A stretch of 43,330 nt of DNA from a virus: positions 1 through 43,330 of the IMG/VR virus record IMGVR_UViG_3300010332_000003. One strand, 5' to 3'. Below the pieces are notes generated by a model, which did no database searches, was not told where the DNA came from, and saw only the letters and a list, made by a program, of their open reading frames with translations. This document shows positions 23,321-41,014 of this stretch, piece by piece. The translations under genes and the position numbers were made by a program. The stretch's first letter is position 1. Every line of letters starts with the position of its first letter.

Positions 23321-23328
23321 AGAAGGAA

Positions 23329-23395: not shown

Positions 23396-23414
23396 GAAAT
23401 TAAGGAGTCTCATC

Positions 23415-23614: not shown

Positions 23615-23637
23615 TAATGTATATTGGAGGTGAAAAA

Positions 23638-24022: not shown

Positions 24023-24037
24023 GGAAGGAGAGCAAAG

Positions 24038-24352
24038 ATGGATGAGAGGTTGAAGAGAACAGCAGTGCTTGTGGGAGACCTGTGTGCTTTCTCGTCTGAC
24101 GATAGTGCAGCAGAAGCAATAGTTGCTGGATTGCGGAGTGAGAAAGATGCGCTTGTTGCAGCTGCAGAAGAGCTTCTGCGCGGACAGAAAGAGAAAGCAA
24201 ATACCGTGATAGAGAAGGCGCGTAAGATTTCAGTTCTCGGCGCAGCTCTTGCAGAGCTGCAAGAGGGAGACGATACGATCGCGCATGTAGAGCAAGCGTT
24301 AGAGCTTGAGCTGAATAAACTGCGTTCTTGGGCATATAGGGAAAGAGTTTAG
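24038..24352 (+). CDS. Hypothetical early protein (104 aa), paralog of 25040-25324
   Basis: All-helical: MDERLKRTAVLVGDLCAF, AEELLRGQKEKANTVIEK, VLGAALAELQEGDDT. It aligns with the product of 25040-25324 over most of its length (ER-[VL]-KR, V-x-[QD]-LC, an AAAEE-x2-RG or similar middle, VL-x2-AL, and a final E-x2-K-[LI] ), so the two are probably diverged copies. SD GGAAGGAG. Its role is unknown. Confidence 0.55.
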   Translation: MDERLKRTAVLVGDLCAFSSDDSAAEAIVAGLRSEKDALVAAAEELLRGQKEKANTVIEKARKISVLGAALAELQEGDDTIAHVEQALELELNKLRSWAYRERV

Positions 24353-24358
24353 TTTTTC

Positions 24359-24424
24359 GGGGAGCGGTATATGTCGTATATTGAAGTGACATATACCGCT
24401 CCCCTTAGTTATCTATTTTTTGTT
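24359..24424 (+). promoter_or_regulatory. 17-bp intergenic hairpin plus conserved 19-nt tail (copy 1)
   Basis: Arms 24359-24375 and 24388-24404 pair perfectly (17 bp) with a 12-nt loop. The stem contains GCGGTATATGTC. It is followed by TAGTTATCTATTTTTTGTT (24406-24424), identical to the tail of the hairpin at 24962. The T run lies 10 nt from the stem, too far for a standard terminator. The next SD GGAAGGAG comes directly after. The repeat suggests a control element for two early genes. Confidence 0.55.
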
Positions 24425-24439
24425 GGAAGGAGATGTGAA

Positions 24440-24685
24440 ATGCTTGACAGGTATATAGCTCCAGTGTTAGAGGATATCCGGGATGAAAGCATTCCTGTTG
24501 AAAAACGGTACGTATATGCTGTACTCCTGGAGAGCTTCTCTAAGGAGCACAGCCAAGACAAAGAGTTGCAGGTCCGTATCAGCGGTCTCAGGAATGTCTT
24601 GAACAGGATGAGGGAAGATACTGGTCGTGTGAACCTTATAAGTGCGTGGATAGAGAAGAGAGTAAAGGAGATTCAAAATGGCTGA
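24440..24685 (+). CDS. Hypothetical early protein (81 aa)
   Basis: Helical: MLDRYIAPVLEDIRDESIPV, YVYAVLLESFSKEHSQD, and VNLISAWIEKRVKEIQNG. The ATG at 24440 follows GGAAGGAG by 7 nt; an upstream in-frame ATG at 24371 lies in the hairpin and is rejected. It overlaps the next gene by 8 nt. Unrecognised. Confidence 0.55.
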   Translation: MLDRYIAPVLEDIRDESIPVEKRYVYAVLLESFSKEHSQDKELQVRISGLRNVLNRMREDTGRVNLISAWIEKRVKEIQNG

Positions 24686-24956
24686 GCCAAAACAAATTTT
24701 CGGGTTGAAGCCGGATATTGTCGCAGCATTACCTAGGGAAGGTTACACTTATATCGTCACTTTCAAAGTACGGGGGGATAAGAGTGGCGATTTCGTTGTA
24801 TATGACACATTTCATGCCGCCTCCAAGGAAGAGGCTTTAGAGAAAGTTTCGGAGGCGGTAGTATATTTGATGTCGCAAGACTCTACGTACAATGTTTGCA
24901 TCAAGCGGGTGACTGCCTGGGAGATAGACAGAGCCCGCTTGATGCTCGGTAAATGA
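24678..24956 (+). CDS. Hypothetical early protein with a small alpha/beta domain (92 aa)
   Basis: Residues about 20-65 read YTYIVTFKVRGDKSGDF, a strand pair, then FHAASKEEALEKVSEAV, a helix starting with the A-S-x-x-E-A-L pattern. This strand-strand-helix unit occurs in several other genes here (31765, 41015, 41350) and in many phage proteins. The end (VCIKRVTAWEIDRARLMLGK) adds a strand and helix. It is probably a small binding or regulatory protein; function unknown. Confidence 0.55.
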   Translation: MAEPKQIFGLKPDIVAALPREGYTYIVTFKVRGDKSGDFVVYDTFHAASKEEALEKVSEAVVYLMSQDSTYNVCIKRVTAWEIDRARLMLGK

Positions 24957-24961
24957 GTACA

Positions 24962-25017
24962 TGGGCGGTATATGTCCTGTGTGGCATATACCGCCCACTA
25001 GTTATCTATTTTTTGTT
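24962..25017 (+). promoter_or_regulatory. Intergenic hairpin plus conserved 19-nt tail (copy 2)
   Basis: Arms 24962-24974 and 24985-24997 pair perfectly (13 bp, 15 with a T-G and a C-G inside) and contain GGCGGTATATG, shared with copy 1. The tail TAGTTATCTATTTTTTGTT (24999-25017) is identical to copy 1. The loop piece TCCTGT (24975-24980) can pair with ACAGGA (25035-25040) at the start codon of the next gene, a weaker version of the pseudoknots seen upstream. Confidence 0.55.
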
Positions 25018-25039
25018 CCCTGTAGGGAGGAGAGACAGG

Positions 25040-25324
25040 ATGCTGTTACAGGAGAGAGTCAAGCGTATAGGATCGATAGTTGACCAGTTATGTTCCTTGC
25101 TACCAGACTTCTATACCTTTGTGCGGCTGAAGCAACTGCTTCAACACGAATACGACGGTCTGAAGAGAGCAGCTGCTGAGGAAGAGCGTGGGAAGGTATA
25201 TTCGCATGCGAAGGGTATGGAAGTATTAGCTTCGGCGCTCTCGTACTTTGCAGCGAGGGAGAAAGACGAAGCAGCTTGTTTCGTGGTGGATGCTCTTCGC
25301 GTCGAGATTTCGAAGATCTTTTGA
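25040..25324 (+). CDS. Hypothetical early protein (94 aa), paralog of 24038-24352
   Basis: Helical: MLLQERVKRIGSIVDQLC, AAAEEERGKVYSHAKGMEVL and ACFVVDALRVEISKIF. It is a likely diverged copy of the product of 24038-24352. The start at 25040 follows AGGGAGGAG; the longer in-frame start at 24953 would run through the hairpin and is rejected. Function unknown. Confidence 0.55.
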   Translation: MLLQERVKRIGSIVDQLCSLLPDFYTFVRLKQLLQHEYDGLKRAAAEEERGKVYSHAKGMEVLASALSYFAAREKDEAACFVVDALRVEISKIF

Positions 25325-25330
25325 GGAAAG

Positions 25331-25684
25331 ATGGAGAGACACATCACCTGGGAAGAGGTGAGGGAGAGGTGTCGAGACATACATAAGTGGATACGACAGC
25401 ATCTTCCTACACCGTGTAAGGTATATGGGATCCCGAGAGGCGGATCCTGGGTTGCTCTTATGTTGTTTGCTATGGGAGGAGTGCAGCTATGTTGTGAGAA
25501 GGAAGCAGACTTGATAGTAGATGAGATCGCAGACACGGGTAAGACCCTGTCCAAGTATAGGTATAGATTGACAGCGGTCATGTACAGCAGGAAGGATTGC
25601 AAAGTTGCAACCTTCTCCGCGGAAGAGGTTGGACCAGAGTGGTTAGTCTTTCCATGGGAAAGGGAGAGGAAACTTTTCTGTTGA
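25331..25684 (+). CDS. Phosphoribosyltransferase-family protein
   Basis: A 117-residue type I phosphoribosyltransferase-like protein. The PRPP-binding loop is LIVDEIADTGKTL (residues 61-73), matching the family pattern of hydrophobics, two acids and T/S-G-x-T. VYGIPRGGSW (31-40) is the conserved 'g..rGG' loop that binds pyrophosphate, and VGPEWLVFPWE near the end matches the 'w..fPwe' end of xanthine/hypoxanthine enzymes. It is shorter than cellular enzymes (about 150-180 residues). It may salvage a purine or deazapurine base; substrate cannot be told from sequence. It ends 4 nt into the promoter at 25681. Confidence 0.75.
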   Translation: MERHITWEEVRERCRDIHKWIRQHLPTPCKVYGIPRGGSWVALMLFAMGGVQLCCEKEADLIVDEIADTGKTLSKYRYRLTAVMYSRKDCKVATFSAEEVGPEWLVFPWERERKLFC

Positions 25685-25709
25685 ACCCTTTTTGAGACAG
25701 GAGTATAAT
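25681..25709 (+). promoter_or_regulatory. Sigma70-type promoter, near-leaderless start
   Basis: TTGAAC (25681-25686), 17-bp spacer, perfect TATAAT (25704-25709). The transcript should begin about 25715-25718, at or next to the ATG of the next gene (25718), so that gene may be translated from a leaderless mRNA. GACAGGAG lies in the spacer and would only serve readthrough transcripts. TTGAACCCT and the spacer length are shared with the promoter at 10579. Confidence 0.75.
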
Positions 25710-25717
25710 AGCGCGCA

Positions 25718-25882
25718 ATGAAAAAGGGAAGAGGTTGGTTCGGTAAATACCTCCCCCAGATGATAGCGGCAGCGGCGGTTACTTTCCTGACAGAGATGGT
25801 GAAGCTTTTGAGTGAGTACGTGAAGAAGAAAGGAGGTGAGGATGTAGAGAAGAAAGATGATGAAGCCGGTGTAGATGAGTAG
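25718..25882 (+). CDS. Small amphipathic/membrane-associated protein (54 aa)
   Basis: MKKGRGWFGKYLPQMIAAAA, then VTFLTEMVKLLSEYVKKK and a very acidic/charged tail (GGEDVEKKDDEAGVDE). A basic aromatic N-terminus, a hydrophobic helix of about 15-20 residues and a charged tail suggest membrane association. It lies right under the strongest promoter seen here, so it is probably made in quantity early. Unrecognised. Confidence 0.6.
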   Translation: MKKGRGWFGKYLPQMIAAAAVTFLTEMVKLLSEYVKKKGGEDVEKKDDEAGVDE

Positions 25883-25891
25883 TCAGTAGTT

Positions 25892-25912
25892 GGTGGTTGG
25901 TTGGTCGTTGGG
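25892..25912 (+). other. G/T-rich leader with two-layer G-quadruplex potential
   Basis: GGTGGTTGGTTGG (25892-25904), followed by a GGG (25910-25912), gives four or five closely spaced GG runs, the pattern of two-layer quadruplexes. It is part of a low-complexity G/T stretch between 25883 and 25925 that precedes the SD AAGGAG of the next gene. It may be a structured leader or a simple-sequence spacer. Confidence 0.35.
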
Positions 25913-25936
25913 TGTTAGTTAGTAAGGAGATTTAAG

Positions 25937-26296
25937 ATGCCAGATCCCAAAGCTGTTGCTAAGGAAGCTGATAAGGCTGCTGCCGAAAAGAAGAAAAAGA
26001 ATGTACAGTTGGTCTCCCCCCAAGTGAGACTTCCTGAGCCTCTGCGTCAACCGTTAGTGCAGAGAGCTCAGGAGACAGGCGTCTCCACTTCGCGGCTTGC
26101 GGCTCGTCTCCTTGCAGATAAGCTTCTCGAGGAGAAGCGGATCAGCAAGGAGGCTTACGATGCCGCTATTCAGCAGCTCGAACGACCTGCTCGCGTCTCG
26201 AAAGCTGCCGAGCAGATCCAAGAGCTGCAAAAGAAGCTCGCGGAGCTGGAGAAGCAAAACGAAGAGTTGCGGCAGCGGCTCGCCAGCAAGAAGTAA
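25937..26296 (+). CDS. Ribbon-helix-helix-like DNA-binding protein with C-terminal coiled coil
   Basis: A 119-residue protein. Lys/Ala-rich N-terminus (1-22); then VQLVSPQVRLPEPLRQPLV with AQETGVSTSRLAARLL (about 23-65), a beta strand and two helices as in CopG/Arc-type ribbon-helix-helix regulators; and a Leu-heptad coiled coil QELQKKLAELEKQNEELRQR (about 97-116). It is ended by a strong terminator. It may be the regulator that binds the palindromes or iterons, but this is inference. Confidence 0.6.
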   Translation: MPDPKAVAKEADKAAAEKKKKNVQLVSPQVRLPEPLRQPLVQRAQETGVSTSRLAARLLADKLLEEKRISKEAYDAAIQQLERPARVSKAAEQIQELQKKLAELEKQNEELRQRLASKK

Positions 26297-26307
26297 ACTG
26301 TATGTCA

Positions 26308-26347
26308 GGGAGAGGGAGCATCGAGCTCCCTCTCCCTTTTCTTTTTT
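26308..26347 (+). terminator. Rho-independent terminator upstream of queC
   Basis: Perfect 12-bp stem (26308-26319 with 26325-26336), ATCGA loop, then TTTTCTTTTTT (26337-26347). It should end transcripts from the 25681 promoter after the DNA-binding gene. The SD of queC (AGGAGAAGGGAG) begins within a few bases of the T tract and no promoter fits between, so queC needs readthrough or antitermination. Confidence 0.85.
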
Positions 26348-26359
26348 AGGAGAAGGGAG

Positions 26360-27007
26360 ATGATAGAAGTACCAGAAGAGGGTAAGTATGTAGTTCTGCT
26401 CTCCGGAGGTTTAGATTCGACAACTCTCCTATACTACCTCAGATCTCTCAACTACAGAGTACATGCTCTGATCGTCTCGTATGGTCAAATGCATTTCAAG
26501 GAGACGCTCATAGCTTCTCTCCTCTGCAAAAATCTAAATCAGCCTTACACCCTTTTGAGAGTGTCAGGGTTGAAGACATGGACGAAAGTAGTAGAAGGAG
26601 AGTATACCCCGGAGAACACAAAGGCGATGACAGTACCTTTCCGCAATAGTATATTTCTGCTGCACGCAGCGAACCTAGCTGTGTCGTTAGGATGGAGACA
26701 TGTAGCATACGCAGCACACAAAGGAGATGCTCCATATCCTGATTGCACTGCAGAGTATGTATATGCGATGAAGACTCTCCTGGAGCTTGCTCATCACGAA
26801 CCTATCACATTAGAAGCTCCCTTCTTAGGTGCGACGAAGGGAGAGATAGTTCAACTAGGAGCAAAACTGGGAGTTCCTCTTGAGAGGACGTGGAGCTGTT
26901 ACAAAGGAGGAGATAAGCACTGTGGTAAATGCCCGACATGCCTGGAGAGGAAGAAAGCATTCGAGGAAGCTGGCATTGACGACTTGACGGAGTATGAGCA
27001 TGTTTGA
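26360..27007 (+). CDS. queC: 7-cyano-7-deazaguanine (preQ0) synthase
   Basis: A 215-residue QueC. It turns 7-carboxy-7-deazaguanine into preQ0 using ATP and ammonia. The ATP pyrophosphatase loop SGGLDS is at residues 15-20, followed by the family YGQMH (41-45). The zinc site is four cysteines, 180, 188, 191 and 194 (SCYKGGDKHCGKCPTC), and the family end 'eR..aF..ag..D' is present (ERKKAFEEAGIDD). The other preQ0 genes are 8-10 kb away (queD, queE, folE). It overlaps the next gene by 8 nt. A second, altered QueC lies at 39418. Confidence 0.93.
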   Translation: MIEVPEEGKYVVLLSGGLDSTTLLYYLRSLNYRVHALIVSYGQMHFKETLIASLLCKNLNQPYTLLRVSGLKTWTKVVEGEYTPENTKAMTVPFRNSIFLLHAANLAVSLGWRHVAYAAHKGDAPYPDCTAEYVYAMKTLLELAHHEPITLEAPFLGATKGEIVQLGAKLGVPLERTWSCYKGGDKHCGKCPTCLERKKAFEEAGIDDLTEYEHV

Positions 27008-27332
27008 GTATCGCATCGGGAAAGAGAGTACATTTAACCCTCTCCCGGCTAGTTCCTGGAGAGATGCATGGGACCGTATAGAGTCTGATTTGGTCTCTCT
27101 GCTGAAACAGGATCCCCGTAGAGTCGTTGCCGGGGATCTTTCTTCTTTAAGACCGCTGGAGAGATGCGATGTTAAATGTCTGCGCTACGACGAGTATGCG
27201 CAACGCTCTTTGAACACGGCAGGTTCTGTATTCACTGTCGTGGTTTTGAGAAACAAGAAGACAGGGGAGAAAAGACGCCGCTACTACGAGGTAAGGAGAG
27301 GTAGCAATGTGGCCGGTGGCATTTTGGTGTGA
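27000..27332 (+). CDS. Tandem paralog family, member 1
   Basis: A 110-residue protein, MFEYRIGKESTFNPLPASSW, then RDAWDRIESDLVSLL and a C-terminal strand pair with RRRYYEVRR. ATG 27000 has a well-placed GGAG; ATG 26994 is too close to it. It is the first of four adjacent genes with one plan: strand, N/x-PLP-x-[SR]-[SW] loop, DAW-x-[RK]-IE helix, central strand and helix, and a final beta hairpin. No known family recognised. Confidence 0.6.
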   Translation: MFEYRIGKESTFNPLPASSWRDAWDRIESDLVSLLKQDPRRVVAGDLSSLRPLERCDVKCLRYDEYAQRSLNTAGSVFTVVVLRNKKTGEKRRRYYEVRRGSNVAGGILV

Positions 27333-27666
27333 AGTTGAGGACCTCGGGATACGCAGCGCTCTTCCATCCGTGAGGTCCTTCGAAAGCGCGTGGCGGAGAG
27401 TTCGCGAGGAGATACTTCCGCGGCTCGAGGGTTTTACGTACGTAGACGAGCAGACGCTAGTAGGGAAACCGGTAAACGTCCGCAGGTGGAGAGTCAAGGA
27501 TCTTACGCGACATGAGTACGAGGACATGAAGAAGAAGGTAGGCGAGATGAACCGGCTGGCCGCTTTGGGGAAGGCTCCCTTTAGGTTTCCTGTAGAGGTT
27601 TGTGTACGGAATGAGGAGACGGGCGATGAGGAGTACGACTGGTGTCTTTTGGAGGAAGAGAAGTGA
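27307..27666 (+). CDS. Tandem paralog family, member 2
   Basis: A 119-residue member: MWPVAFWCEVEDLGIRSALP, FESAWRRVREEILPRLEGF, VNVRRWRVKDLTRHEYEDM, and a final hairpin FPVEVCVRNEETGDEEYDW. It matches member 4 best in the 'AW.k.e.E.LP.L' helix and in the 'W..e....eE...' segment. It overlaps member 1 by 26 nt; SD AAGGAGAGG. Confidence 0.6.
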   Translation: MWPVAFWCEVEDLGIRSALPSVRSFESAWRRVREEILPRLEGFTYVDEQTLVGKPVNVRRWRVKDLTRHEYEDMKKKVGEMNRLAALGKAPFRFPVEVCVRNEETGDEEYDWCLLEEEK

Positions 27667-27977
27667 GTAAGGTTGAAGTGTCTATCGAAGGGAGCAAGTT
27701 TGTTCCTCTCCCTAAAGTAGAAACGGTTGACGATGCTATATGGCGTTTGCATGCTTCTCTTATCTCTTTCTTGCGGAAGCACAAGATGCTTCTCCCGCCG
27801 AAGCTACGTAAATTCTTAAGTAGGGTTAAGCATCGCTGGATGGTTGTGATTTATGACGAGCGTGAGTGTGCTGACTGGAGGAGAGAGCGAGACAAGGAGC
27901 ATAGCTTCCGAGTTCTGACTACTATCCGCGGAAACGGGGAAGAGAAGAAGGTATGTTGGCATATACTGACTGAATAG
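27663..27977 (+). CDS. Tandem paralog family, member 3
   Basis: A 104-residue member starting at GTG 27663 with GGAGGAAG upstream (4-nt overlap with member 2). Visible: VEVSIEGSKFVPLPKV, then DDAIWRLHASLISFLRKH, HRWMVVIYDERECADWR, and FRVLTTIRGNGEEKKVCW. It is the most diverged copy but keeps the PLP loop and the final hairpin with a charged turn. Confidence 0.55.
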   Translation: MSKVEVSIEGSKFVPLPKVETVDDAIWRLHASLISFLRKHKMLLPPKLRKFLSRVKHRWMVVIYDERECADWRRERDKEHSFRVLTTIRGNGEEKKVCWHILTE

Positions 27978-27987
27978 GAGAGGTAAG

Positions 27988-28302
27988 ATGGAGTTCAGGT
28001 TCTACGTAGAGAACGGCCCGCAGAATCACCCTCTTCCTGCGCGTTCTTGGGTAGATGCTTGGCAAAAGATAGAAACAGAGGTTTTGCCCAAGCTTAAATT
28101 CCACGAGATAGATACTTCGACAAAGCCGTGGAAGATCGAGAGGGTGTCCAAAGAGGAGTGGGAGGAAGCAGAAGGAGATATGGTGAAGAGAATGCGTTCT
28201 TCTTCACAGTCCGGAGTTCTTTGGACAAGTACGGTTCCTGTTTTCGTATCTCTGCGTAAGGGAGACGAAGAGCAGACAAGGTACTACATTTTGAGGGTGT
28301 AG
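27988..28302 (+). CDS. Tandem paralog family, member 4
   Basis: A 104-residue member: MEFRFYVENGPQNHPLPARSW, where the PLPA-x-SW matches member 1 nearly exactly, then VDAWQKIETEVLPKLKF, WKIERVSKEEWEEAEGD and a final VPVFVSLRKGDEEQTRYY. SD TAGGAGAGG. The four-gene array between queC and the lysozyme probably arose by repeated duplication; such small phage arrays often counter host defences, but nothing here proves that. Confidence 0.6.
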   Translation: MEFRFYVENGPQNHPLPARSWVDAWQKIETEVLPKLKFHEIDTSTKPWKIERVSKEEWEEAEGDMVKRMRSSSQSGVLWTSTVPVFVSLRKGDEEQTRYYILRV

Positions 28303-28304
28303 AG

Positions 28305-28745
28305 ATGAAACTACTCCTAAAGCCTGTGTTGTATATTCCTCTCTTAGTTGCTATATGCATACCTAAATCCGAAGACGATATATTGCTAGATGCTTTGGAG
28401 CAGGTGGAGAGCGGAGGAGACATTGGAGCTGTTGGTGACAGAGGAAGAGCTCTGGGTCCTCTCCAGCTCCACAAGAGTTTTTGGTTAGATGCGCTGCAAT
28501 ATGCAGGGAAGAAGAATGAAGGAGAGTGGAAGTACATAGACAATGTTTGGAGCAGAAGTAAATCAAGACAGATTGTGAAGTGGTATTGGAAGAAGTATAA
28601 ATGTAAGACCAGGTTAGAGAAGGTGTGCGCCTTCCATTGGGGACCGAAAGGAGCTCAGTATGCCCGCAAAGTTGAATATTATTACCGCAGATGTAAGATG
28701 TCCGCTGTGCGGAGGAGAAAAGGTAAATACGAAGGTAGGAGATGA
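28305..28745 (+). CDS. Lysozyme/transglycosylase-like endolysin with N-terminal signal or anchor
   Basis: A 146-residue lysin. Residues 2-19 form a hydrophobic helix (LLLKPVLYIPLLVAICI), which could be a Sec signal or a signal-arrest-release anchor. The lysozyme-fold core reads LEQVESGGDIGAVGDRGRAL (Glu35 as catalytic acid), then GPLQLHKSFWLDAL, SRQIVKWYWKKY and FHWGPKGAQYARKVEYY, the layout of phage SLT-like enzymes that cut peptidoglycan glycan strands. It lies far from the holin-like genes (1708-2074), among early-type genes. Confidence 0.75.
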   Translation: MKLLLKPVLYIPLLVAICIPKSEDDILLDALEQVESGGDIGAVGDRGRALGPLQLHKSFWLDALQYAGKKNEGEWKYIDNVWSRSKSRQIVKWYWKKYKCKTRLEKVCAFHWGPKGAQYARKVEYYYRRCKMSAVRRRKGKYEGRR

Positions 28746-28896
28746 TCACGGCTGGTGGTGGAAATGCTATGACTGCTTGTGCTACTTCCTTGCACAGCCG
28801 TCAGAAGTAGATGGGGAGTACTATATTGAAATTCCCAAGAAAGGTACGCGAAAGATGACACCCGAAGAGATTAGGAGGATGTTACCGTGGACATAG
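28660..28896 (+). CDS. Small zinc-ribbon protein (78 aa)
   Basis: MPAKLNIITADVRCPLCGGEKV, with CPLCG and CYDC forming a four-cysteine ribbon (residues 14-39), then an acidic strand region and MTPEEIRRMLPW helix. It overlaps the lysozyme gene by 86 nt in another frame; AAGGAG stands 8 nt before its ATG, supporting this start. It may bind nucleic acid or a polymerase. Unrecognised. Confidence 0.6.
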   Translation: MPAKLNIITADVRCPLCGGEKVNTKVGDDHGWWWKCYDCLCYFLAQPSEVDGEYYIEIPKKGTRKMTPEEIRRMLPWT

Positions 28897-29330
28897 ACAT
28901 TGTTGGTTCTGGCGGGGATATTACGGTCTTTGCTACTCCTCGAGAAGCGTACTTTGTGAGGAGTGAAAATGGCTGCAGAGCCGTCCAATTCTCCTTTACA
29001 GAAGAGGAGCTTGCTGAGATAGACCACAACTGGGATGTCGTCGTTGCTTCTACTGTTAAAGCCGTCAAGCTCTTCGGTTTCCCTCCTGGAGAGAAGAAAG
29101 AAGTTCCCAAGATTGAGTCCGGGAGGTTAGTGCTTACCGGAGTCACCTTGGAGAAGGAAGAGATACCGGACGAAGACAATATCTTCGTCATTGTCTCTGA
29201 AGCGGAGAGGACTGTGCTGCTCCTCAAGAGCGAGAAGGATTATTTCGTCCGAGCTCGCGCTGAGAGGGATTTTGGTCCGAAGGAATGGGGAGATGTCGCG
29301 AAATATATACTAGTGGGAGGAATGCTATGA
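28887..29330 (+). CDS. Hypothetical protein (147 aa)
   Basis: Begins at GTG 28887 (SD TTAGGAGG). Alternating strands: DIDIVGSGGDITVFATPREA, VQFSFTEEELAEIDHNW, LVLTGVTLEKEEIPDEDNIF, and YFVRARAERDFGPKEWGD. It is an acidic, beta-rich protein without signal or cysteines pattern. Overlaps neighbours by 10 nt and 4 nt. Function unknown. Confidence 0.55.
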   Translation: MDIDIVGSGGDITVFATPREAYFVRSENGCRAVQFSFTEEELAEIDHNWDVVVASTVKAVKLFGFPPGEKKEVPKIESGRLVLTGVTLEKEEIPDEDNIFVIVSEAERTVLLLKSEKDYFVRARAERDFGPKEWGDVAKYILVGGML

Positions 29331-29635
29331 AAGACATTAGAGAAGTTGTTCAGGAGAAGATCCTGGAGATACTGACACGAAAGGGTATATATCTCTTAGA
29401 TCTTGAGAGCTTGAACCATACAGGATACACTTATGTAGGAGAACCGTGTGACGAGCCTTTCCGCAAGAGACACTACTACATCTATACACCGGATGGCTGG
29501 CAGGAGTTTGAGTCTGCCAGCACGAAACCTTCTCGTGCGCTCAAAGGAAGGCTCGTTATTGTCTATCACGAAGATACCTACCCAGACGGGAACGTGAGCA
29601 GGAGAATGACGATAGGATACGCAGATGTTAATTAG
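29327..29635 (+). CDS. Hypothetical protein (102 aa)
   Basis: MKDIREVVQEKILEILTRKG, then HYYIYTPDGWQEFESAST and RLVIVYHEDTYPDGNV. GGGAGG lies 6 nt before ATG 29327; the in-frame ATG at 29285 is inside the previous gene. A helix followed by a beta meander. It overlaps the helicase gene by 11 nt, so it may be a helicase partner by position only. Confidence 0.55.
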   Translation: MKDIREVVQEKILEILTRKGIYLLDLESLNHTGYTYVGEPCDEPFRKRHYYIYTPDGWQEFESASTKPSRALKGRLVIVYHEDTYPDGNVSRRMTIGYADVN

Positions 29636-30959
29636 AAGTAAACCTTTGTATTCCTTCCAAGAGAAGGTAATAGACTTTGCGAAAGGAAGGGAGAGGGTCG
29701 GTATCTTTACTCCTTTCGGTTCCGGGAAGTCCTTTCTGGCGCTTCAGTGGCTAAGCACCCTGCCTGATCCTCTCCCTTCCATTGTCCTCTGTCCGCAGGG
29801 TTTGGTGCCGCAATGGGGAGCGGAGATTGAGAAGCACACAGACGCTTCTTATGTATGCGTAGATGGTTCATACGAGAAGAGAAAAAGTTTGCTGAAGAAG
29901 GATGCAGATATTTATGTCGTTGGGTATGATGCTGTCAGGAGCCGCCTCTACGAGGACCTTCAAGCCTTCTGCCCGAAGATAAAAGCCGTGATCGCAGATG
30001 AGAGCACGAGGTTGAAGGAGAGGAGGACCTTGAGGTGGAGAAGATGGTATAGCCTCCTGAAGCATACTAAGTACAGGGCTCTCCTGACAGGCTCCTGCTG
30101 GGAAGAGCACCCCGAAGAGATTTTCGGACAGATGCTCTTCCTGGATGACGGAGAGACCTTCTCCAAGAGTTTCATGCGCTTCCGCTACGAATTCTTTGTA
30201 CCAGGACCTCCGTGGGCTCCTTATAAGTGGGAGCTCCAGAGGACGGCTCCTCAGCGTATGGCTGCGAGGATGAAGAACTGCATATACATCAAGGAGGAAG
30301 AGTTGTACAAGGAATTGCCCGAGAAAGAGTACCTGCGGATAGAGTTAGAGATGCCGATGGAGCAATACCGTCAATTAAGGGATGAGTATAGAACTTCTCT
30401 GGAAGGAGTAGAGATAGATGTTATGACCGCTGTCGAGAGAGTAATGAAGCTACATGAGCTGGCATGTGGTTTCGTATATGACCAGGGGAGAGGAGTAGAC
30501 ATACACACGATAAAGGAAGACTGGATAGTTGACAACCTTTCAGTTCTCCCCAAGCCTCTCCTCATCTGGTCGCATTTCAAATATCCTCTTCAACGCCTGA
30601 TGAGTAAATTGCCAGTTCCTTATTCGACACAAGATACATTGCAAGATTTCCTGGATGGCAAGACAGATATACTCCTCTTGTCTGAAGACAGGGGAGGTCA
30701 AGGATTAAATCTTCAGAGAGCGAGAGCAGCTATCTTCATGAACTCTTCTTTCAAAGCTGCTCAAAGGAAAAATGCGGAGGCGAGATGTTACAGGATAGGA
30801 ACGAAGTATCCTGTGCTGTATATTGATTTGGTCTGCAAAGGTACTATTGATGAATACGTCTTGGACGTGATTGAGAAGAAGCAGAGTATAATTGACGTTC
30901 TGCTAAAACACTTGGAGATAGCGGGAGCGGGCTCTGGCAGGTCTCCCTCCGCCTGCTAA
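29625..30959 (+). CDS. SNF2-type DNA helicase/translocase
   Basis: A 444-residue superfamily 2 ATPase. Motif I is FTPFGSGKSFLAL (GSGKS 32-36), motif II is VIADESTRLK (D125, E126), motif III-like ALLTGSCWEE, motif V DILLLSEDRGGQGLNLQ, and motif VI RCYRIGTKYPV. The single Q motif FQEKVIDFA is at the N-terminus. It resembles small phage SNF2 helicases that act in replication or recombination. The coding end also forms the 5' arm of an RNA structure (30919-30999). Confidence 0.85.
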   Translation: MLIRSKPLYSFQEKVIDFAKGRERVGIFTPFGSGKSFLALQWLSTLPDPLPSIVLCPQGLVPQWGAEIEKHTDASYVCVDGSYEKRKSLLKKDADIYVVGYDAVRSRLYEDLQAFCPKIKAVIADESTRLKERRTLRWRRWYSLLKHTKYRALLTGSCWEEHPEEIFGQMLFLDDGETFSKSFMRFRYEFFVPGPPWAPYKWELQRTAPQRMAARMKNCIYIKEEELYKELPEKEYLRIELEMPMEQYRQLRDEYRTSLEGVEIDVMTAVERVMKLHELACGFVYDQGRGVDIHTIKEDWIVDNLSVLPKPLLIWSHFKYPLQRLMSKLPVPYSTQDTLQDFLDGKTDILLLSEDRGGQGLNLQRARAAIFMNSSFKAAQRKNAEARCYRIGTKYPVLYIDLVCKGTIDEYVLDVIEKKQSIIDVLLKHLEIAGAGSGRSPSAC

Positions 30960-30999
30960 AATGCACGTCTCCCCCCGCGTGCGCTTCCCGCTCCCGCTA
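30919..30999 (+). ncRNA. Three-way-junction RNA element with twin C-rich loops
   Basis: A 13-bp G/C-rich outer helix (30919-30931 with 30987-30999) encloses two 5-bp hairpins: GCAGG/CCTGC (30937-30941 with 30952-30956) and GCACG/CGTGC (30963-30967 with 30978-30982). Their 10-nt loops are TCTCCCTCCG and TCTCCCCCCG, nearly identical, while one stem pair is swapped G-C to C-G. The element spans the helicase stop codon and ends just before SD AAGGGAG of the next gene. The loops are complementary to SD-like GGGAGA, so it may control translation. Confidence 0.6.
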
Positions 31000-31012
31000 A
31001 GGGAGTATGGAG

Positions 31013-31447
31013 ATGTATCACTTTTCGAAAGTACCGCCGGAGATTATATTGAAGGAAGGGCTGAGCAGGAAGAGCAAAGGGCTGACGAAGGCGGGAAGCT
31101 GGGCGATAGAAGAAGGATGGCTTCCCGAGAATGTAATCTTCCTGTCCAGAGATCCGCCTCTTCCTCTTGATGGTTATGTCTATCGTGTAAATGTGAAAGG
31201 ATTAGACCTCCTTCCAGACTATCCTGCGTTGGTAGATTTAGGAGCTTTTGTCTGGGAAGAGTATATGTATTGGCCTGAAGGAGAGGTTCCTGAACGGCTG
31301 CGCGATAGGCATGATCCGTACTGGGGTGTCTACTACAAGCACATTACAGCAGAAGACACCCTTGCGCTGACCGGAACGGCAGCTGTTGAGGGACCTATCT
31401 TTCCTTGGAGGATTGTGTATGAAAGTGGTAAAGATAGTAATCAATGA
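31013..31447 (+). CDS. ADP-ribosyltransferase-fold-like protein (KptA/DarT-like)
   Basis: A 144-residue protein. MYHFSKVPPEIILKEGL recalls the 'l.Hgt....i...GL' opening of KptA/Tpt1 and DarT-type ADP-ribosyltransferases (His3). ENVIFLSRDP matches the 'vhLs.d' strand and YVYRVNVKGLDLLPD the 'vl.vd...l..d' strand; WEEYMYWPEGEVPERL could supply the late Glu region. The start at 31013 fits the SD AAGGGAG; ATG 31007 is too close. If active it could modify a nucleic acid or host protein using NAD. Fold assignment is by motif order only. Confidence 0.5.
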   Translation: MYHFSKVPPEIILKEGLSRKSKGLTKAGSWAIEEGWLPENVIFLSRDPPLPLDGYVYRVNVKGLDLLPDYPALVDLGAFVWEEYMYWPEGEVPERLRDRHDPYWGVYYKHITAEDTLALTGTAAVEGPIFPWRIVYESGKDSNQ

Positions 31448-31763
31448 GGAGCACAGGCTTTTGAAGTGTCAGCATGAGGTATTAGAGAAGACATTCGGAA
31501 GAGCCTGGTATGAGTATATTCAGATCCCAGCTGGCGGGATGACTGCGAAAGAGCAAGTGGAATTAGCTGGGAGAATGTGGGAAGAAGAGTGCGATGTAGT
31601 TGTAGTATCGCCAGCTCCTGTCTTGCTGACGGAGTTGGTGAAGGTGAAAAAGAAGAAAGGGAAACTCTATGTTTTCGTGAATGATAAGAGAGAAAAGATT
31701 GAGAAGGATGGCAGAATCCTTCTCAAACTACCAGCAGATGGATGGTACTTATGGGAGGTGTAA
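31419..31763 (+). CDS. Hypothetical protein (114 aa)
   Basis: MKVVKIVINEEHRLLKCQHE, then GGMTAKEQVELAGRMWEEE and CDVVVVSPAPVLLTELVKV, which reads like a small Rossmann-like or alpha/beta fold, and a final hairpin ILLKLPADGWYLWEV. SD TTGGAGG precedes ATG 31419 by 8 nt. It overlaps the previous gene by 29 nt. The end of the gene holds an 11-bp perfect hairpin (31699-31726). Function unknown. Confidence 0.55.
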   Translation: MKVVKIVINEEHRLLKCQHEVLEKTFGRAWYEYIQIPAGGMTAKEQVELAGRMWEEECDVVVVSPAPVLLTELVKVKKKKGKLYVFVNDKREKIEKDGRILLKLPADGWYLWEV

Positions 31764-31764
31764 G

Positions 31765-32091
31765 ATGACATATTACGTAGCTATCAAGAGGTACGGACGA
31801 AATCCGTGGGATACATCCTTAGATAAATTTACGGTAGACGCTTCCACGGCTCTCATTGCTGCTATGAAAGCAGCTGATATAAAAGTACCCGGAGGAGAGG
31901 ACCCTCTGCAGTATATTGAGAGAACTTCCCTGAATGTAGATTACGAGATACCGCATCGTGTTGGTTTTGCGTATGAAGAATTTTCGGTAGGAGCCGGACG
32001 GACAAAGGAAGAAGCGATGGCTATGCTGACGCAGGTAGATACTCCTGGAGATGATGATGATGAATGGGAGGAGTTAGAGGATGCTTCTTGA
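31765..32091 (+). CDS. Hypothetical protein with YYV/ASxxAL small domain (108 aa)
   Basis: MTYYVAIKRYGRNPWDTSLD, then FTVDASTALIAAMKAADIK, and later FSVGAGRTKEEAMAMLTQV, followed by an acidic tail DDDDEWEELED. The strand, then A-S-x2-A-L helix, then G-R-T-K-E-E-A helix pattern matches the products of 41015 and 41350. GGGAGG lies upstream of ATG 31765. Unknown function. Confidence 0.55.
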   Translation: MTYYVAIKRYGRNPWDTSLDKFTVDASTALIAAMKAADIKVPGGEDPLQYIERTSLNVDYEIPHRVGFAYEEFSVGAGRTKEEAMAMLTQVDTPGDDDDEWEELEDAS

Positions 32092-32458
32092 AAAACTCCG
32101 GCGTTACAGAGACTTCTTGCACGAGGAGTTTCGTAAGCAGAGTATGGGTATATGGAATGATTTGACATGTATAACTCACAAAGCTTCCCTTGACGATTGT
32201 GTTACTATCTTAGAGCAGTTATATGAGATTGCTGGGCTGGGAGCGGAGAATGCGAGAAGAGCAGCCAAGGCGCGTATATACCAAGAAATGGAGAGCGTAA
32301 AGGACATGGTAGAGAAAGTTCTCCAGAGCGCCGAGAGTATGCATCCGTGGGAGCTCGAGAAGATAGTACATTCTCTGATAATAGTGAAAGCCATTAGCAA
32401 TGGTGGAGACCCGAAGAAAGCAGTGAAAGCTTTTGAGAAGAAATTGAGGAGGCTGTGA
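32081..32458 (+). CDS. Hypothetical helical protein, paralog 1 of a tandem pair (125 aa)
   Basis: MLLEKLRRYRDFLHEEF, ASLDDCVTILEQLYEIAGL, VLQSAESMHPWELEKIVHSL, and AISNGGDPKKAVKAFEKKL. It is clearly homologous to the next gene: both have AS-L-x-D-x-[VI]-T-[IV]-LE-x-L-[YF]-EIAG and an E-[LR]-x-[KR]-IV then AIS-x3-DP repeat. All-helical. No known family. Confidence 0.6.
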   Translation: MLLEKLRRYRDFLHEEFRKQSMGIWNDLTCITHKASLDDCVTILEQLYEIAGLGAENARRAAKARIYQEMESVKDMVEKVLQSAESMHPWELEKIVHSLIIVKAISNGGDPKKAVKAFEKKLRRL

Positions 32459-32459
32459 G

Positions 32460-32861
32460 ATGCAAGAGTTCAAACCTATCCTTGAGAAGATCAGAGAGTA
32501 CAGCCAGCGCGTACATAGAGAGTTTGATCTCCTTAAACATGGTCTCTGGCCATCAGTAGAAGAGGCTCAGAAGAGAGCTTCTCTCCGAGACTTCATCACC
32601 GTCCTGGAGTGTTTGTTTGAGATAGCTGGAATACCAGCTGCAGATCAAGTGTCTATAGAAAAGACCCTGAAGGAGAGCGTAGCGAGGGAAATAGAAGGTA
32701 TCGGAGATGCTGTAAATGCTGCTCTCCTGCGCGCAGAGGATATGGAAGCTTGGCGGCTGGAGAGAATAGTCCGTCTCCTGTTGACTATAAGAGCTATTAG
32801 CGATAGAAGAGATCCCGAAGAGGAAGTGAATGCTTTCCTGAGGAGGCTCGAAGAGATATGA
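32460..32861 (+). CDS. Hypothetical helical protein, paralog 2 of a tandem pair (133 aa)
   Basis: MQEFKPILEKIREYSQRVHR, ASLRDFITVLECLFEIAGI, AEDMEAWRLERIVRLLLTI, RAISDRRDPEEEVNAFLRR. It matches the preceding gene along its length and starts directly after that gene's stop. The pair may form a heterodimer. Function unknown. Confidence 0.6.
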   Translation: MQEFKPILEKIREYSQRVHREFDLLKHGLWPSVEEAQKRASLRDFITVLECLFEIAGIPAADQVSIEKTLKESVAREIEGIGDAVNAALLRAEDMEAWRLERIVRLLLTIRAISDRRDPEEEVNAFLRRLEEI

Positions 32862-33247
32862 AGCCACTACCTCCTACGAGACAGGGTCTGACGAGAAGAG
32901 AGATTATATGTGGCAATAAAGTATTCATTACCGTAAACTTCTTTGAGAACGGTGAGCCGTGTGAAGTTTTCGCGACTGTAGCGAAGATAGGTTCTACCCT
33001 GCAAGGTTTCGTAAATGTTGTCTGTATATTAGTCTCTGCTCTCCTGAGGAACGGAGTTCCCTGGAGCGAAGTGCGGGAGAAGCTACGCCTACACCACTTC
33101 GTTCCTTCTGACGACAAAGACTCGAGCATAGTACACGGCATAGCACGCGTTGTGGACGAGCTGATCGGGGAGTGGAAGAATTTTCTTGCAGATAGGAAGA
33201 AGGAGGAGTATAATAAGAATGGAAATGAAGAGCATAACGCACAGTAG
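32858..33247 (+). CDS. Stand-alone TSCPD-domain protein
   Basis: A 129-residue protein whose residues about 12-105 match the TSCPD domain found at the C-terminus of B12-dependent (class II) ribonucleotide reductases: KVFITVNFFENGEPCEVFAT, VAKIGSTLQGFVNVVCILVS, ALLRNGVPWSEVREKL and HHFVPSD. No reductase catalytic domain is present in the window. Stand-alone TSCPD proteins occur in some phages; their role is not settled. It lies among DNA metabolism genes, so a nucleotide link is likely. It overlaps the nuclease gene by 29 nt. Confidence 0.75.
   Translation: MKPLPPTRQGLTRREIICGNKVFITVNFFENGEPCEVFATVAKIGSTLQGFVNVVCILVSALLRNGVPWSEVREKLRLHHFVPSDDKDSSIVHGIARVVDELIGEWKNFLADRKKEEYNKNGNEEHNAQ
33186..33214 (+). 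promoter_or_regulatory. Possible promoter within the TSCPD gene end
   Basis: TTGCAG (33186-33191), 17-bp spacer, perfect TATAAT (33209-33214). The ATGs at 33219 and 33225 lie just after it, so the transcript would be leaderless or start inside the first codons, like the case at 25718. The -35 is weak and the TATAAT also sits in coding sequence, so it may be chance. Confidence 0.35.
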
Positions 33248-34130
33248 CAAGGAATGCTTCCTGGAGTGCCCGTACAGATATTTCTTGGAGTATATCAGAC
33301 TGCTTACTCCCTCTGCAGCTGCAGCTCCCTACCTTACTTGGGGACAGCTTGTGCATGCTGCTTTGGGTTGGATGTCCGAGAGAGAAACAATGGACACTGA
33401 AGGTGCAGTGGAGGCGTTGCGAGAGTACTTCGAAGAACATCCTGAGGGGGTACAGATAGATCTGGTAGATGCTATGCTATACTCCCTGGACAAAGTTCTA
33501 AAGGGGTGGCAGCTGAAATGGGCAGAGAAAGACAAGGACCTGGAGACTGTTATGTCCGAGGTTCCTTTTGAGATGCCCCTTCCCTCAGGCTATGTCTTTA
33601 AAGGGAAGATTGACAGGATCGTCAAGGATAAGAAAACCGGAAAGTTGCTTCTGTGGGAGTGGAAGACACCTTCTCGTGTGATATGGCAGAACTATCTTCT
33701 TGGCGGACAGGGTTTAGGTTATGTCCTGGGAGCGAGAGAAGCTCTCGGCTTTGATGTAGACACTATTCAGTATGATTTCCTTTTGAAACCGGCGAATAAG
33801 AGACAGTATGAGACGGAAGTAGATTATTGGGAGAGGATAGGAGAATCCGTCCTCCTGTCCTATGACAAGTATTTCTTCCGTCCAGATCCTTTGACATACA
33901 GAGAAGAGGAGATACGACGCTACAAGGTTGAGTTAGATGACATTACGCAGATGATAGAGTTCTGCCGCAGAGAAGGTATCTTCCCGAAACACCACGCAGC
34001 AAACCGCTTCGGGAAGTGCGCGTTTGAAAGAGTGTGTTTGTACGGAGATGAGAACGGATATTTCGTGAGAGAGAATTTTCACCCTGAACTGGAGAGCATC
34101 CATGTTAAACCAGGAACCGACGAAGATTGA
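33219..34130 (+). CDS. PD-(D/E)XK nuclease (RecB/Cas4-like)
   Basis: A 303-residue nuclease. The active-site pattern is GKIDRIVKDKKTGKLLLWEW followed by KT (Asp, then E-x-K about 15 residues later). THSSKECFLECPYRYFLEYI near the N-terminus is the Cas4/AddB-like opening, and GKCAFERVCLYG near the end provides more cysteines, so a four-cysteine Fe-S cluster (two Cys from each end) is likely. An earlier His in QLVHAALG fits the family. It precedes a Sak4-like recombinase, so it probably resects DNA ends for recombination. An ATG at 33225 is an alternative start. Confidence 0.8.
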   Translation: MEMKSITHSSKECFLECPYRYFLEYIRLLTPSAAAAPYLTWGQLVHAALGWMSERETMDTEGAVEALREYFEEHPEGVQIDLVDAMLYSLDKVLKGWQLKWAEKDKDLETVMSEVPFEMPLPSGYVFKGKIDRIVKDKKTGKLLLWEWKTPSRVIWQNYLLGGQGLGYVLGAREALGFDVDTIQYDFLLKPANKRQYETEVDYWERIGESVLLSYDKYFFRPDPLTYREEEIRRYKVELDDITQMIEFCRREGIFPKHHAANRFGKCAFERVCLYGDENGYFVRENFHPELESIHVKPGTDED

Positions 34131-34893
34131 AACAGACCCGAGAAAGTACATGACCTTAGTCTATGGGATTGCAGGGGTAGGAAAGACTACCTTCTGCTCC
34201 CAGATACCAGATCACTACTTCCTTATAACAGAACCCGGTACTGAAGGCGTGGAGGTGTACGGCTCCGTAGTACAGAGCTGGGAAGACTTCTTGCGTCTCG
34301 GCGAAGAGCTGATAAAAGCGAAGCAGGAAGACTTCGCAGGACAGAGGCGCATAGAAGTCATCGTCATAGACACATACGAAGCCTTGTATAAGATGGCAGG
34401 TGAGTGGATCTGCATGCATGAAACCTTCCTTGTGAGGGGCCGTGCACAACACTTCAACAAGATTGAAGATGTTCCTTGGGCACTTGGATATAGACGTACA
34501 TCGGAGCTCGTATTAGAGAAGCTACTGAAGCTGAAGAGGATGGGTTACGGTATATTCCTCACCTCACACGCTAAAGAAAGGACTGTTACATGGAGAGGTG
34601 AGGAGGTATCTCACTTCGGTCCTAATTTATCACAAGCCTCTGCAGAGGCGCTAGTAAATGCGTGTGGTGCGGTTGGTTTCTTCACGATGGAACAGGAGGT
34701 GGAACGGACAGAGGAGAAGAAGATTGTACGCGAGAGTAGATGGATGTATTGGCAGCCGCAGTTCATGCGTGTTGCCAAGCATCGCCTAGCCGGGTTCCCA
34801 GAGAAGTTGCCGCTGCCGCTAAATGGTTGGGAAGTATATGTGAATGCGTTTAAGGAAACCCTTAGTAAGGAGAGAGGAGATGCCGCAAGGTAA
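34102..34893 (+). CDS. Sak4-like RecA-fold recombinase
   Basis: A 263-residue P-loop ATPase of the AAA_24/Sak4 type. Walker A is GIAGVGKTT (22-30), Walker B is EVIVIDTYEAL (Asp90). FLTSHAKER, and HFGPNLSQASAEALVNACGA near the middle, are typical of the family. Sak4 proteins anneal or exchange single strands in phage recombination and replication. The following gene encodes a DUF669-like partner; the preceding one a nuclease. It overlaps the nuclease gene by 29 nt. Confidence 0.8.
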   Translation: MLNQEPTKIETDPRKYMTLVYGIAGVGKTTFCSQIPDHYFLITEPGTEGVEVYGSVVQSWEDFLRLGEELIKAKQEDFAGQRRIEVIVIDTYEALYKMAGEWICMHETFLVRGRAQHFNKIEDVPWALGYRRTSELVLEKLLKLKRMGYGIFLTSHAKERTVTWRGEEVSHFGPNLSQASAEALVNACGAVGFFTMEQEVERTEEKKIVRESRWMYWQPQFMRVAKHRLAGFPEKLPLPLNGWEVYVNAFKETLSKERGDAAR

Positions 34894-35341
34894 CCAGGAC
34901 GAAGTATTAGAGTCGCTGGCGCAGGATTTTCCAAAAGAGAAGCTGCAGCAAGTGGCTGCACGCACAGGTCCAGGTCAGCTCCCGCCTGGGCAGGTAGTGT
35001 TGAAGGTCCGGAACGCCTATCTGGGGAGATCGCAGATGGGCAACCGGATGATTACCATCGAGTGTGAAGTAGTGTCGCACTCCGCAGGAGAAGAGTACAA
35101 GGGAGCGACCTACTTCATACCGCGCGTGGTCGAAAACGAGGACGGTTGGGCATACTTCAACGGTATGCTCGTGAACCTCGGCTTCGACCCTGTCGTAGAT
35201 ATTAAGACGCAGTTGCTTCCCACGCTGGATGCTCTCAAGGGTATCCAGTTCCGCGCTAACCTGACGGAGAACCAGCAGGAAGGTATGCCGCCCAACTGCT
35301 GGATTAACGCAGGCGCGCGGATCGAAGGCGGTAGATTCTGA
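34880..35341 (+). CDS. DUF669-like single-strand-binding protein
   Basis: A 153-residue protein starting at ATG 34880 after AAGGAGAGGAG. The N-terminal 45 residues are polar and Pro/Gly-rich; the rest is OB-like: VVLKVRNAYLGRSQMGNRMI, TYFIPRVVENEDGWAYFNGM, LDALKGIQFRANLTENQQEG, then NCWINAGARI. The 'l.G..f.a.l......g...n.in.' pattern matches DUF669, commonly next to Sak4 in phages. It likely coats single strands and loads the recombinase. Confidence 0.7.
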   Translation: MPQGNQDEVLESLAQDFPKEKLQQVAARTGPGQLPPGQVVLKVRNAYLGRSQMGNRMITIECEVVSHSAGEEYKGATYFIPRVVENEDGWAYFNGMLVNLGFDPVVDIKTQLLPTLDALKGIQFRANLTENQQEGMPPNCWINAGARIEGGRF

Positions 35342-35351
35342 GCCTGACGCG

Positions 35352-35383
35352 GAGGCGGAGTACTCTTCGGAGTACTCCGCCTC
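35352..35383 (+). promoter_or_regulatory. 14-bp hairpin with UUCG tetraloop upstream of queD
   Basis: Perfect 14-bp stem (35352-35365 with 35370-35383) closed by C(UUCG)G, an extra-stable loop. There is no T tract, so full termination is unlikely. It lies 15 nt before the queD start (SD TTGGAG at 35386-35391). It may block processing or decay from upstream, or set the level of the preQ0 genes. Confidence 0.65.
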
Positions 35384-35398
35384 TATTGGAGAAAAGAA

Positions 35399-35752
35399 AT
35401 GAGGTTCTATTGTAAAGTTACGGGTACATTTGATGCTGCACACTCCATAAAAGGATATGAAGGGAAGTGCGGACAGCTACATGGTCACACCTGGAAGGTA
35501 ACCGTATATGTAGAAGAGAATGCGGAGATCGTATGCGAGAACGGCTATGACGTAGACCTTTCGCAGCTGAAGGCGGATCTGAGAGAAGTCCTCGAAGAGA
35601 TGGATCACCGGGATCTAAATTACCTCTTTAGTAAACCGACAGCGGAGAACATAGCAAGGCGAGTATTTCGAGCACTGTACCGCAAATATAATATATTCAA
35701 GGTAGAAGTAGAAGAGACCCCAGGAAGCGGAGTGATCTTCACCAATGATTAA
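35399..35752 (+). CDS. queD: 6-carboxytetrahydropterin synthase
   Basis: A 117-residue QueD of normal length. It converts dihydroneopterin triphosphate into 6-carboxy-tetrahydropterin. Metal and catalytic features: FDAAHSIKGYEGKCGQLHGH has the zinc His residues (AAH, HGH) and the catalytic Cys of GKC; DHRDLN and PTAENIAR are family motifs; the end VEVEETPGSG is typical. It overlaps queE by 8 nt and lies in the row queD-queE-folE-dpdA. Confidence 0.95.
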   Translation: MRFYCKVTGTFDAAHSIKGYEGKCGQLHGHTWKVTVYVEENAEIVCENGYDVDLSQLKADLREVLEEMDHRDLNYLFSKPTAENIARRVFRALYRKYNIFKVEVEETPGSGVIFTND

Positions 35753-36314
35753 GATGCATGAAATCTTCACGAGCGTACAGTTTGAAGGGAGTAAATACGG
35801 AACGCCTTCCCAGTTCTATAGGTTCTGGGGATGCAACCTGAAGTGCGAGGATTGCGACACTCCACAAGAGGAGTGGGATTGGTTTCCCTTCGAGCCGGAG
35901 TGGGCACGTCCGCGGTGGAAGCATGTCGTCATCACAGGAGGAGAGCCGACTATACAGGCGGACGGTTTGCTTGCATTAGTCAAAGTTCTGCTGAAGAACG
36001 GGCACAGCGTACAGGTAGAAACAAACGGAACTCACCCACGAATACTCGAGCTACTTCCTGACGAAGTCTTCATCACGGTCTCTCCGAAAAAGGGATCGAG
36101 AGGAGATGCTATAACCTTGGCAGATGAGGTGAAGATCGTTCCTGGCATGAGCCCTGAGACTTTCATCGAACAGGCTCTGGAGAAAGACAAACCCGTCTTC
36201 ATACAGCCAAATGCGATGCACGAGGACGGGTTAGAGGAAGCTATACAGTATATCAAGAAGTACCCGGACGCAAGGTTGAGTATACAGGTACATAAGTTAT
36301 TAGGATGGAGGTGA
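35745..36314 (+). CDS. queE: 7-carboxy-7-deazaguanine synthase (radical SAM)
   Basis: A 189-residue radical SAM enzyme. It rearranges 6-carboxytetrahydropterin into 7-carboxy-7-deazaguanine. HEIFTSVQFEGSKYGTPSQF is the family opening; the cluster motif C-x3-C-x2-C is in FWGCNLKCEDCDTP; SAM contacts are in HVVITGGEPTIQ and VETNGT; and the end IQVHKLLGWR is a QueE signature. It is on the short side for the family, as in other phage forms. Confidence 0.94.
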   Translation: MIKMHEIFTSVQFEGSKYGTPSQFYRFWGCNLKCEDCDTPQEEWDWFPFEPEWARPRWKHVVITGGEPTIQADGLLALVKVLLKNGHSVQVETNGTHPRILELLPDEVFITVSPKKGSRGDAITLADEVKIVPGMSPETFIEQALEKDKPVFIQPNAMHEDGLEEAIQYIKKYPDARLSIQVHKLLGWR

Positions 36315-36316
36315 CC

Positions 36317-36904
36317 ATGGACGGCAAAGATATCCTCAATAAGTGGAACAACATTCCGCTAGGCGATGTCATGATTGGAGCGGGAGAGGATCTTGAAGCC
36401 GATGACGTTTTGAAGACGCCGGACAGGTTCCTCTCCGCTTTGCAGGAGATGATCGCAGGCTATGAGCAAGACCCTCTGGAGATAGCCACTTCGGCTGTCT
36501 TTCCCTTCGAAGAAGGGTCACCGTATGTAGTTGTGCGGGATATAGACTTCATGTCTATATGCCGCCATCATCTGCTGCCCATCATCGGGGTAGCTCACGT
36601 AGGATACAAGGTGAATGAGAGCGTGATAGGACTATCAAAAATCCCGAGAGTGGTTGAAGCGTGGGCACGTAGATTGCAGGTACAGGAGAAGATGACCGAG
36701 GAGATCGCAGACACAATAGACCAGGCGATAAACCCGGAAGGTCTCCTGGTCGTAGTAGAAGGAAGACACCTGTGCTGCACAGGAAGAGGAATAAAGAAGA
36801 CCCACGCTACAATGGTCACAGCAGCAGAAAGAGGTGAAGTCGATAGCTTTTTAAGGAGGCTCGTCTGTGGATGTATGTCTAATCGTTCCTCCCGCTCATA
36901 TTGA
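36317..36904 (+). CDS. folE: GTP cyclohydrolase I
   Basis: A 195-residue FolE. It opens GTP to dihydroneopterin triphosphate, the first step of preQ0 synthesis. Features: KTPDRFLSALQEM, the zinc Cys/His in IDFMSICRHHLLP, VIGLSKIPRVVEAWARRLQV, and the second zinc Cys in VEGRHLCCTGRGIKK. It is not QueF: the sequence keeps the FolE GLSK/R-x-[VA] helix and the two Cys and His of the zinc site. The ATG at 36317 follows GGAGG; one at 36305 is less well placed. Overlaps dpdA by 38 nt. Confidence 0.93.
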   Translation: MDGKDILNKWNNIPLGDVMIGAGEDLEADDVLKTPDRFLSALQEMIAGYEQDPLEIATSAVFPFEEGSPYVVVRDIDFMSICRHHLLPIIGVAHVGYKVNESVIGLSKIPRVVEAWARRLQVQEKMTEEIADTIDQAINPEGLLVVVEGRHLCCTGRGIKKTHATMVTAAERGEVDSFLRRLVCGCMSNRSSRSY

Positions 36905-41004: not shown

Positions 41005-41014
41005 GAGACAAGGG

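Follow-up and report, generated by a model that had tools for sequence, protein, structure and literature searches.

A strongly folded three-way-junction RNA between a helicase gene and the next Shine-Dalgarno sequence of a probably heat-loving phage

Main finding

The virus record IMGVR_UViG_3300010332_000003, of which a stretch of 43,330 nt was analysed (hereafter the window), carries on its + strand, at 30919-30999, a predicted three-way junction composed of a closing helix, P1, and two hairpins. The junction fold is real, strong and unusual-looking. The helix and the two near-identical hairpins occupy the tail of a helicase gene, its stop codon and the following gap, and they end at the next Shine-Dalgarno sequence (SD). 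We tentatively favour the reading that the junction is a cis-acting intercistronic mRNA structure which sets the translation of the gene placed after the helicase, most likely belonging to a general type of control structure that is already known. As several other gaps of this genome are also strongly folded, we regard it as a striking example of a familiar type of control and not as a new system. The details that would be new, namely a junction with twin loops and a possible negative coupling between neighbouring genes, are unproven, and so is the junction when taken as an isolated element without relatives.

The features discussed are the following:

29625-30959, + strand: SNF2-type DNA helicase gene (phrog_62), assigned by homology
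30919-30931, + strand: 5' arm of the closing helix P1, in the helicase reading frame (codons 432-436)
30937-30956, + strand: hairpin 1, unit GCAGGTCTCCCTCCGCCTGC with loop CTCCCTCC at 30943-30950, from the predicted fold and the alignment of the units
30957-30959, + strand: TAA stop of the helicase gene, at the base of hairpin 1 on its 3' side, from the sequence
30963-30982, + strand: hairpin 2, unit GCACGTCTCCCCCCGCGTGC with loop CTCCCCCC at 30969-30976, from the predicted fold and the alignment of the units
30984-31012, + strand: putative alternative hairpin pairing 30990-30995 with 31001-31006 and 30984-30987 with 31009-31012 (predicted, -14.3 kcal/mol)
30987-30999, + strand: 3' arm of P1, from the predicted fold
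31000-31005, + strand: SD AGGGAG of the next gene, from the sequence
31013-31447, + strand: downstream gene encoding 144 aa, without a recognisable family (alternative ATG at 31007)

Predicted fold and the twin hairpins

The outer helix P1 (30919-30931 paired with 30987-30999) has 13 bp, all of them perfect, with a purine-rich 5' arm and a pyrimidine-rich 3' arm. The predicted energy of the junction is -46.4 kcal/mol (z -6.39) and none of 200 dinucleotide shuffles was equally good, which bears out the 13-bp helix closing two hairpins that had been proposed in the preliminary description. Among the other 81-nt windows, stepped every 9 bases, the lowest value was -44.7. When helix length alone was scored the junction came top on the + strand with a score of 25, and the best scores in two of 20 Markov-resampled windows were 24 and 23, that is, within two points; the helix-length evidence is weaker than the energy evidence.

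The predicted fold gives hairpin 1 eight pairs and hairpin 2 six to seven, both capped by all-pyrimidine loops of 8 nt, CUCCCUCC and CUCCCCCC, on a U-G closing pair. The preliminary description had stems of 5 bp and loops of 10 nt, so that its two hairpins were recovered and their sizes were not. It was right about the differences between the 20-nt units, which are identical at 17 of 20 positions and differ in one loop base (U/C) and in one stem pair that changes from G-C to C-G with pairing kept. This 'compensating' change is a single event between two copies and has a chance of about 3% by hand estimate. When the inner 55 nt of the junction were Markov-shuffled 20,000 times, a likeness of at least 17/20 arose in three cases, and one other comparably close pair of 20-mers was found in the whole window (23186/23230). 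The likeness ends at the hairpin borders and the copies are offset by 26 bases; since this is not a multiple of three, the twin units are not a codon-level repeat.

Flanking genes

All eight helicase alignments to viral relatives stop at residues 419-433, and the phrog_62 match reaches residue 429, whereas the 5' arm of P1 and hairpin 1 encode residues 432-444. The helicase tail is therefore unconserved and the element lies just past the conserved protein. Its reported position over the helicase stop codon and directly before an SD was confirmed: the TAA stands at the foot of hairpin 1, P1 ends at 30999 and AGGGAG begins at the next base, followed at seven-base spacing by the ATG at 31013.

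The 144-aa product of the downstream gene had no Pfam, PHROG or significant PDB-sequence match, its single NCBIfam match was sub-threshold and irrelevant, and its predicted structure was uninformative (pLDDT 31.6). Searches of phage records, viral contigs and genome contigs gave no close relative of this protein. Lacking a family, a PDB match and a close relative, it gives no support to the ADP-ribosyltransferase-like label previously attached to it. The gene right after it (31386-31763) has a weak NUDIX match (E 0.0057, below the cut-off).

Possible control of the downstream SD

When the 5' arm of P1 was masked in silico, the 3' arm paired with GGGAGT (31001-31006) and GGAG (31009-31012), and SD accessibility dropped, to 0.17 at 37 C (0.54 unmasked) and to 0.20 at 75 C (0.77 unmasked). 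The alternative hairpin so predicted sequesters the SD and is mutually exclusive with P1. By predicted energy P1 is favoured by about 12 kcal/mol, and the OFF state would thus be reached only when the 5' arm is occupied. The phage is probably heat-loving, a growth temperature of about 71 C being suggested by the protein composition of 35 ORFs through a composition-temperature formula. At 70 C, lengthening the RNA context raised the accessibility of this SD from 0.17 to 0.90, the largest gain among 67 starts (the next best being 0.30); at 37 C the same start ranked sixth. These starts were chosen by an SD rule, with five altered by hand. Of 500 permuted P1 helices, 12% at 37 C and 8.4% at 70 C did at least as well, which makes the SD switch suggestive only, a lead to follow. 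The ability of the arm to pair with the SD may simply follow from the position of a G-rich helix next to a purine-rich SD.

The proposed mechanism runs as follows. In the formed junction, P1 would lock away the C-rich 3' arm and leave the SD free (ON). A ribosome on the helicase tail would hold the 5' arm, and the freed 3' arm could then pair with GGGAG and GGAG before the AUG (OFF). As the OFF state would depend on occupancy of the 5' arm, dense translation of the helicase would delay or lower that of the next gene. Masking only the footprint of a terminating ribosome, whose approximate extent we assumed to be 30940-30972, left P1 formed in silico, so the effect would need a following ribosome. 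The twin pyrimidine loops may be only stem caps, or may stabilise the junction by contacting a protein or another RNA. Control of the downstream gene, as the preliminary description had it, is thus reasonable as an influence at the RNA level with some in silico support, while the ADP-ribosyltransferase identity given to that gene is unsupported.

The close packing of phage genes usually lets ribosomes run on from one gene into the next. If the switch were real, it would be a clear example of a gene whose translation damps that of its neighbour. In a bolder version, the anti-SD strand set free by ribosomes on the helicase tail would switch off the gene that follows, and a dimeric protein or a partner RNA, drawn in by the twin loops, would lock the ON state at about 70 C. 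This would amount to a new class of phage riboregulator, and we consider it quite improbable.

Structured gaps elsewhere in the genome

Folding was compared at 16 hand-chosen gene junctions, a set that omits the long gaps before the starts at 2059, 14628, 16380, 21888 and 23415, three of which starts were judged wrong. All eight tested gaps of 37-87 nt were strongly structured (z -2.84 to -6.68). The seven gaps of 2-15 nt gave z from -1.52 to 1.39, and the one gap of 252 nt gave 1.21. For the background, 150 windows of 100 nt were placed at random within 450-22300 and 26400-43200, where most of the sequence is coding, and their mean z was -0.67 (sd 1.40, lowest -4.72); with this spread a single z of about -3 is unexceptional and eight out of eight is exceptional. 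The strong folding of the other tested gaps of 37-87 nt makes the junction part of a genome-wide habit of structured intercistronic spacers. Strong folds in every gap of this size tested, pseudoknot and junction included, would make the phage a compact model of RNA control in a thermophilic virus.

Two H-type pseudoknots were observed. The one at 23329-23397, with a 17-bp stem, follows an origin-like region; up to 12 bp form between its loop TTTTCCGCTCCC and GGGAGCGGAGAA, a segment a short way 5' of the SD that serves the gene at 23415. The other, at 23963-24023, has a 16-bp stem and lies in a 64-nt gap, where its loop TCCGTCCCTG forms 10 bp with CAGGGACGGG, immediately 5' of the SD that serves the gene at 24038. 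Pseudoknot candidates occurred once each in three of 20 resampled windows, none longer than 7 bp. The 13-mer CCGCTCCCGCTAA, which lies in the 3' arm of the junction and the following A, occurs in the first pseudoknot as well and may reflect shared modules or chance.

Terminator-like hairpins with U-runs are located at 24359, 24962 and 26307. Those at 24359-24423 and 24962-25016 have common CGGTATATG arms and an identical tail, TAGTTATCTATTTTTTGTT, and are probably duplicated terminators. The third (26307-26377) is placed 5' of a QueC-like gene whose SD ranked second in context effect at 37 C and at 70 C alike. A 15-bp hairpin with a UUCG loop (35351-35384) stands between a stop codon and the queD SD. 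The genes for QueC-like (26360-27007), QueD (35399-35752), FolE (36317-36904) and a second QueC-like protein (39418-40023) probably belong to a 7-deazaguanine DNA modification pathway. The origin-like noncoding region at 22748-23300 holds four 36-nt repeats and CTTACGGATCCTTACG iterons in both orientations, followed by an AT-rich stretch. Within it, at 23187-23258, near-duplicate hairpin-forming 28-mers are 86% alike, with a T-A pair becoming T-G so that pairing is possible; this region folded with a z of only -1.75.

Search for relatives

Phage records, viral contigs and genome contigs yielded no relative close enough for a covariation test, and conservation of the junction is thus unsupported. 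A search at the DNA level returned no relatives, and viral contigs gave none for the capsid or the portal. In phage records the capsid matches listed (12 of 150) showed 22.5-26.8% identity and the portal matches listed (12 of 129) showed 22.9-27.7%. Helicase relatives (eight of ten candidate stretches, 25-28% identity) had no like element, and for polymerase relatives (12 of 18 stretches) the best segment reached at most 31%.

Pattern scans of viral and genomic sequences detected no second twin junction. The two viral matches to the twin-loop pattern (L002 and L003) were low-complexity or repeat sequence without a like junction. The single-hairpin pattern gave 79 matches from scattered taxa, five viral and 74 genomic, and in 38 of them the variable pair was complementary; the matches were taken as chance, none having a neighbouring unit above 15/20. 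The five contigs matching the terminator-tail pattern were all unrelated. Scanning loci L004-L023 for junctions and pseudoknots yielded one unrelated three-way shape (L006) and no long pseudoknot.

Alternative explanations

Intercistronic hairpins in other phages protect 3' ends or mark cleavage sites. The junction could likewise act on mRNA stability, processing or partial termination, as 3'-end protection or a cleavage site with no switch, and we hold this to be a real though doubtful possibility. It would suit a structure that is one of several at stop codons in this phage, and the purine-rich 5' and pyrimidine-rich 3' arms are as in terminators; moreover, U-runs follow three other structures, so that some gaps do look like terminators. 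The junction, unlike the hairpins at 24359, 24962 and 26307, has no U-run after 30999, where the SD follows at once, and it was not listed in a terminator scan of 22700-36000 that allowed loops of 3-8 only. For such a function a simple hairpin would suffice, which leaves the near-duplicate hairpins unexplained.

That likeness, together with the stem swap that keeps pairing and the loops predicted to be unpaired at 37 and 75 C, is what a protein operator might look like, with a dimeric RNA-binding protein of phage or host sitting on the twin pyrimidine loops to repress or activate. T4 gp32 and gp43, whose operators lie on leader structures, offer precedents (PMC535899, PMC3014915). We nevertheless judge this unlikely: there is no candidate protein, the twin junction did not recur in the pattern scans and the loops do not overlap the SD. 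It is very unlikely that the C-rich loops act as antisense to SDs in cis or in trans, in the manner of the staphylococcal small RNAs whose UCCC loops are reported to bind SDs (PMC3861533). The pyrimidine loops match purine-rich SDs at large, and the CUCCCU of loop 1 is complementary to the adjoining AGGGAG; to that extent the complementarity to GGGAGA-like SDs claimed for the loops stands, and the specific anti-SD role is unsupported. Six-base matches at the 67 starts were no better than with shuffled loops (9 against a mean of 6.9 for loop 1, 2 against 5.2 for loop 2), whereas the 16S end matched at 31 in the same test. Without such a preference neither trans-acting antisense nor loop-SD pairing is favoured, and it would be geometrically awkward for a loop to reach the SD without a linker to P1. 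Least probable of all is a DNA element, in which a cruciform or single-strand hairpin would serve replication or be bound by protein. The region does fold as single-stranded DNA (z -5.17), but the origin-like repeats are elsewhere, at 22748-23300, and a position that runs from stop codon to SD suits an RNA.

Comparison with known systems

Rfam release 15 (4227 models) gave no match in the window, the best E in 30850-31060 being 4.4, far below gathering, and the literature consulted on junctions, pseudoknots, hairpins, UCCC loops and structured phage RNA contained no description of the junction element. In three-way-junction riboswitches that act on translation, such as the adenine add riboswitch, two hairpins are closed by a P1 whose formation competes with pairing of the SD, an architecture which the predicted folds of our element resemble. 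It differs from the add riboswitch in having no Rfam match, loops that are not mutually complementary and a P1 of 13 bp; moreover, by predicted energy its ON state would need no ligand.

With the Staphylococcus UCCC-loop small RNAs described in PMC3861533 the junction shares an unpaired UCCC in its hairpin loops, and it differs from them in its cis position and in showing no preference for a target SD among the 67 starts. The leader pseudoknot of T4/RB69 gene 32, described in PMC535899, is an intercistronic operator RNA 5' of the SD that overlaps the upstream frame in T4. The junction is likewise an intercistronic phage RNA 5' of an SD and overlaps the upstream frame, and the two pseudoknots of our phage resemble that of gene 32 in position. 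Unlike the gene 32 pseudoknot so described, the element is a three-way junction, with no UUAAA repeats between it and the start. In the early transcripts of T4 genes e, soc, 49 and I-TevI the SD is sequestered in a context-dependent manner, according to PMC3014915. The predicted SD-hiding pairing of our phage similarly varies with transcript context, although in the reverse sense to gene e as described there, since the longer RNA context frees the phage SD in silico.
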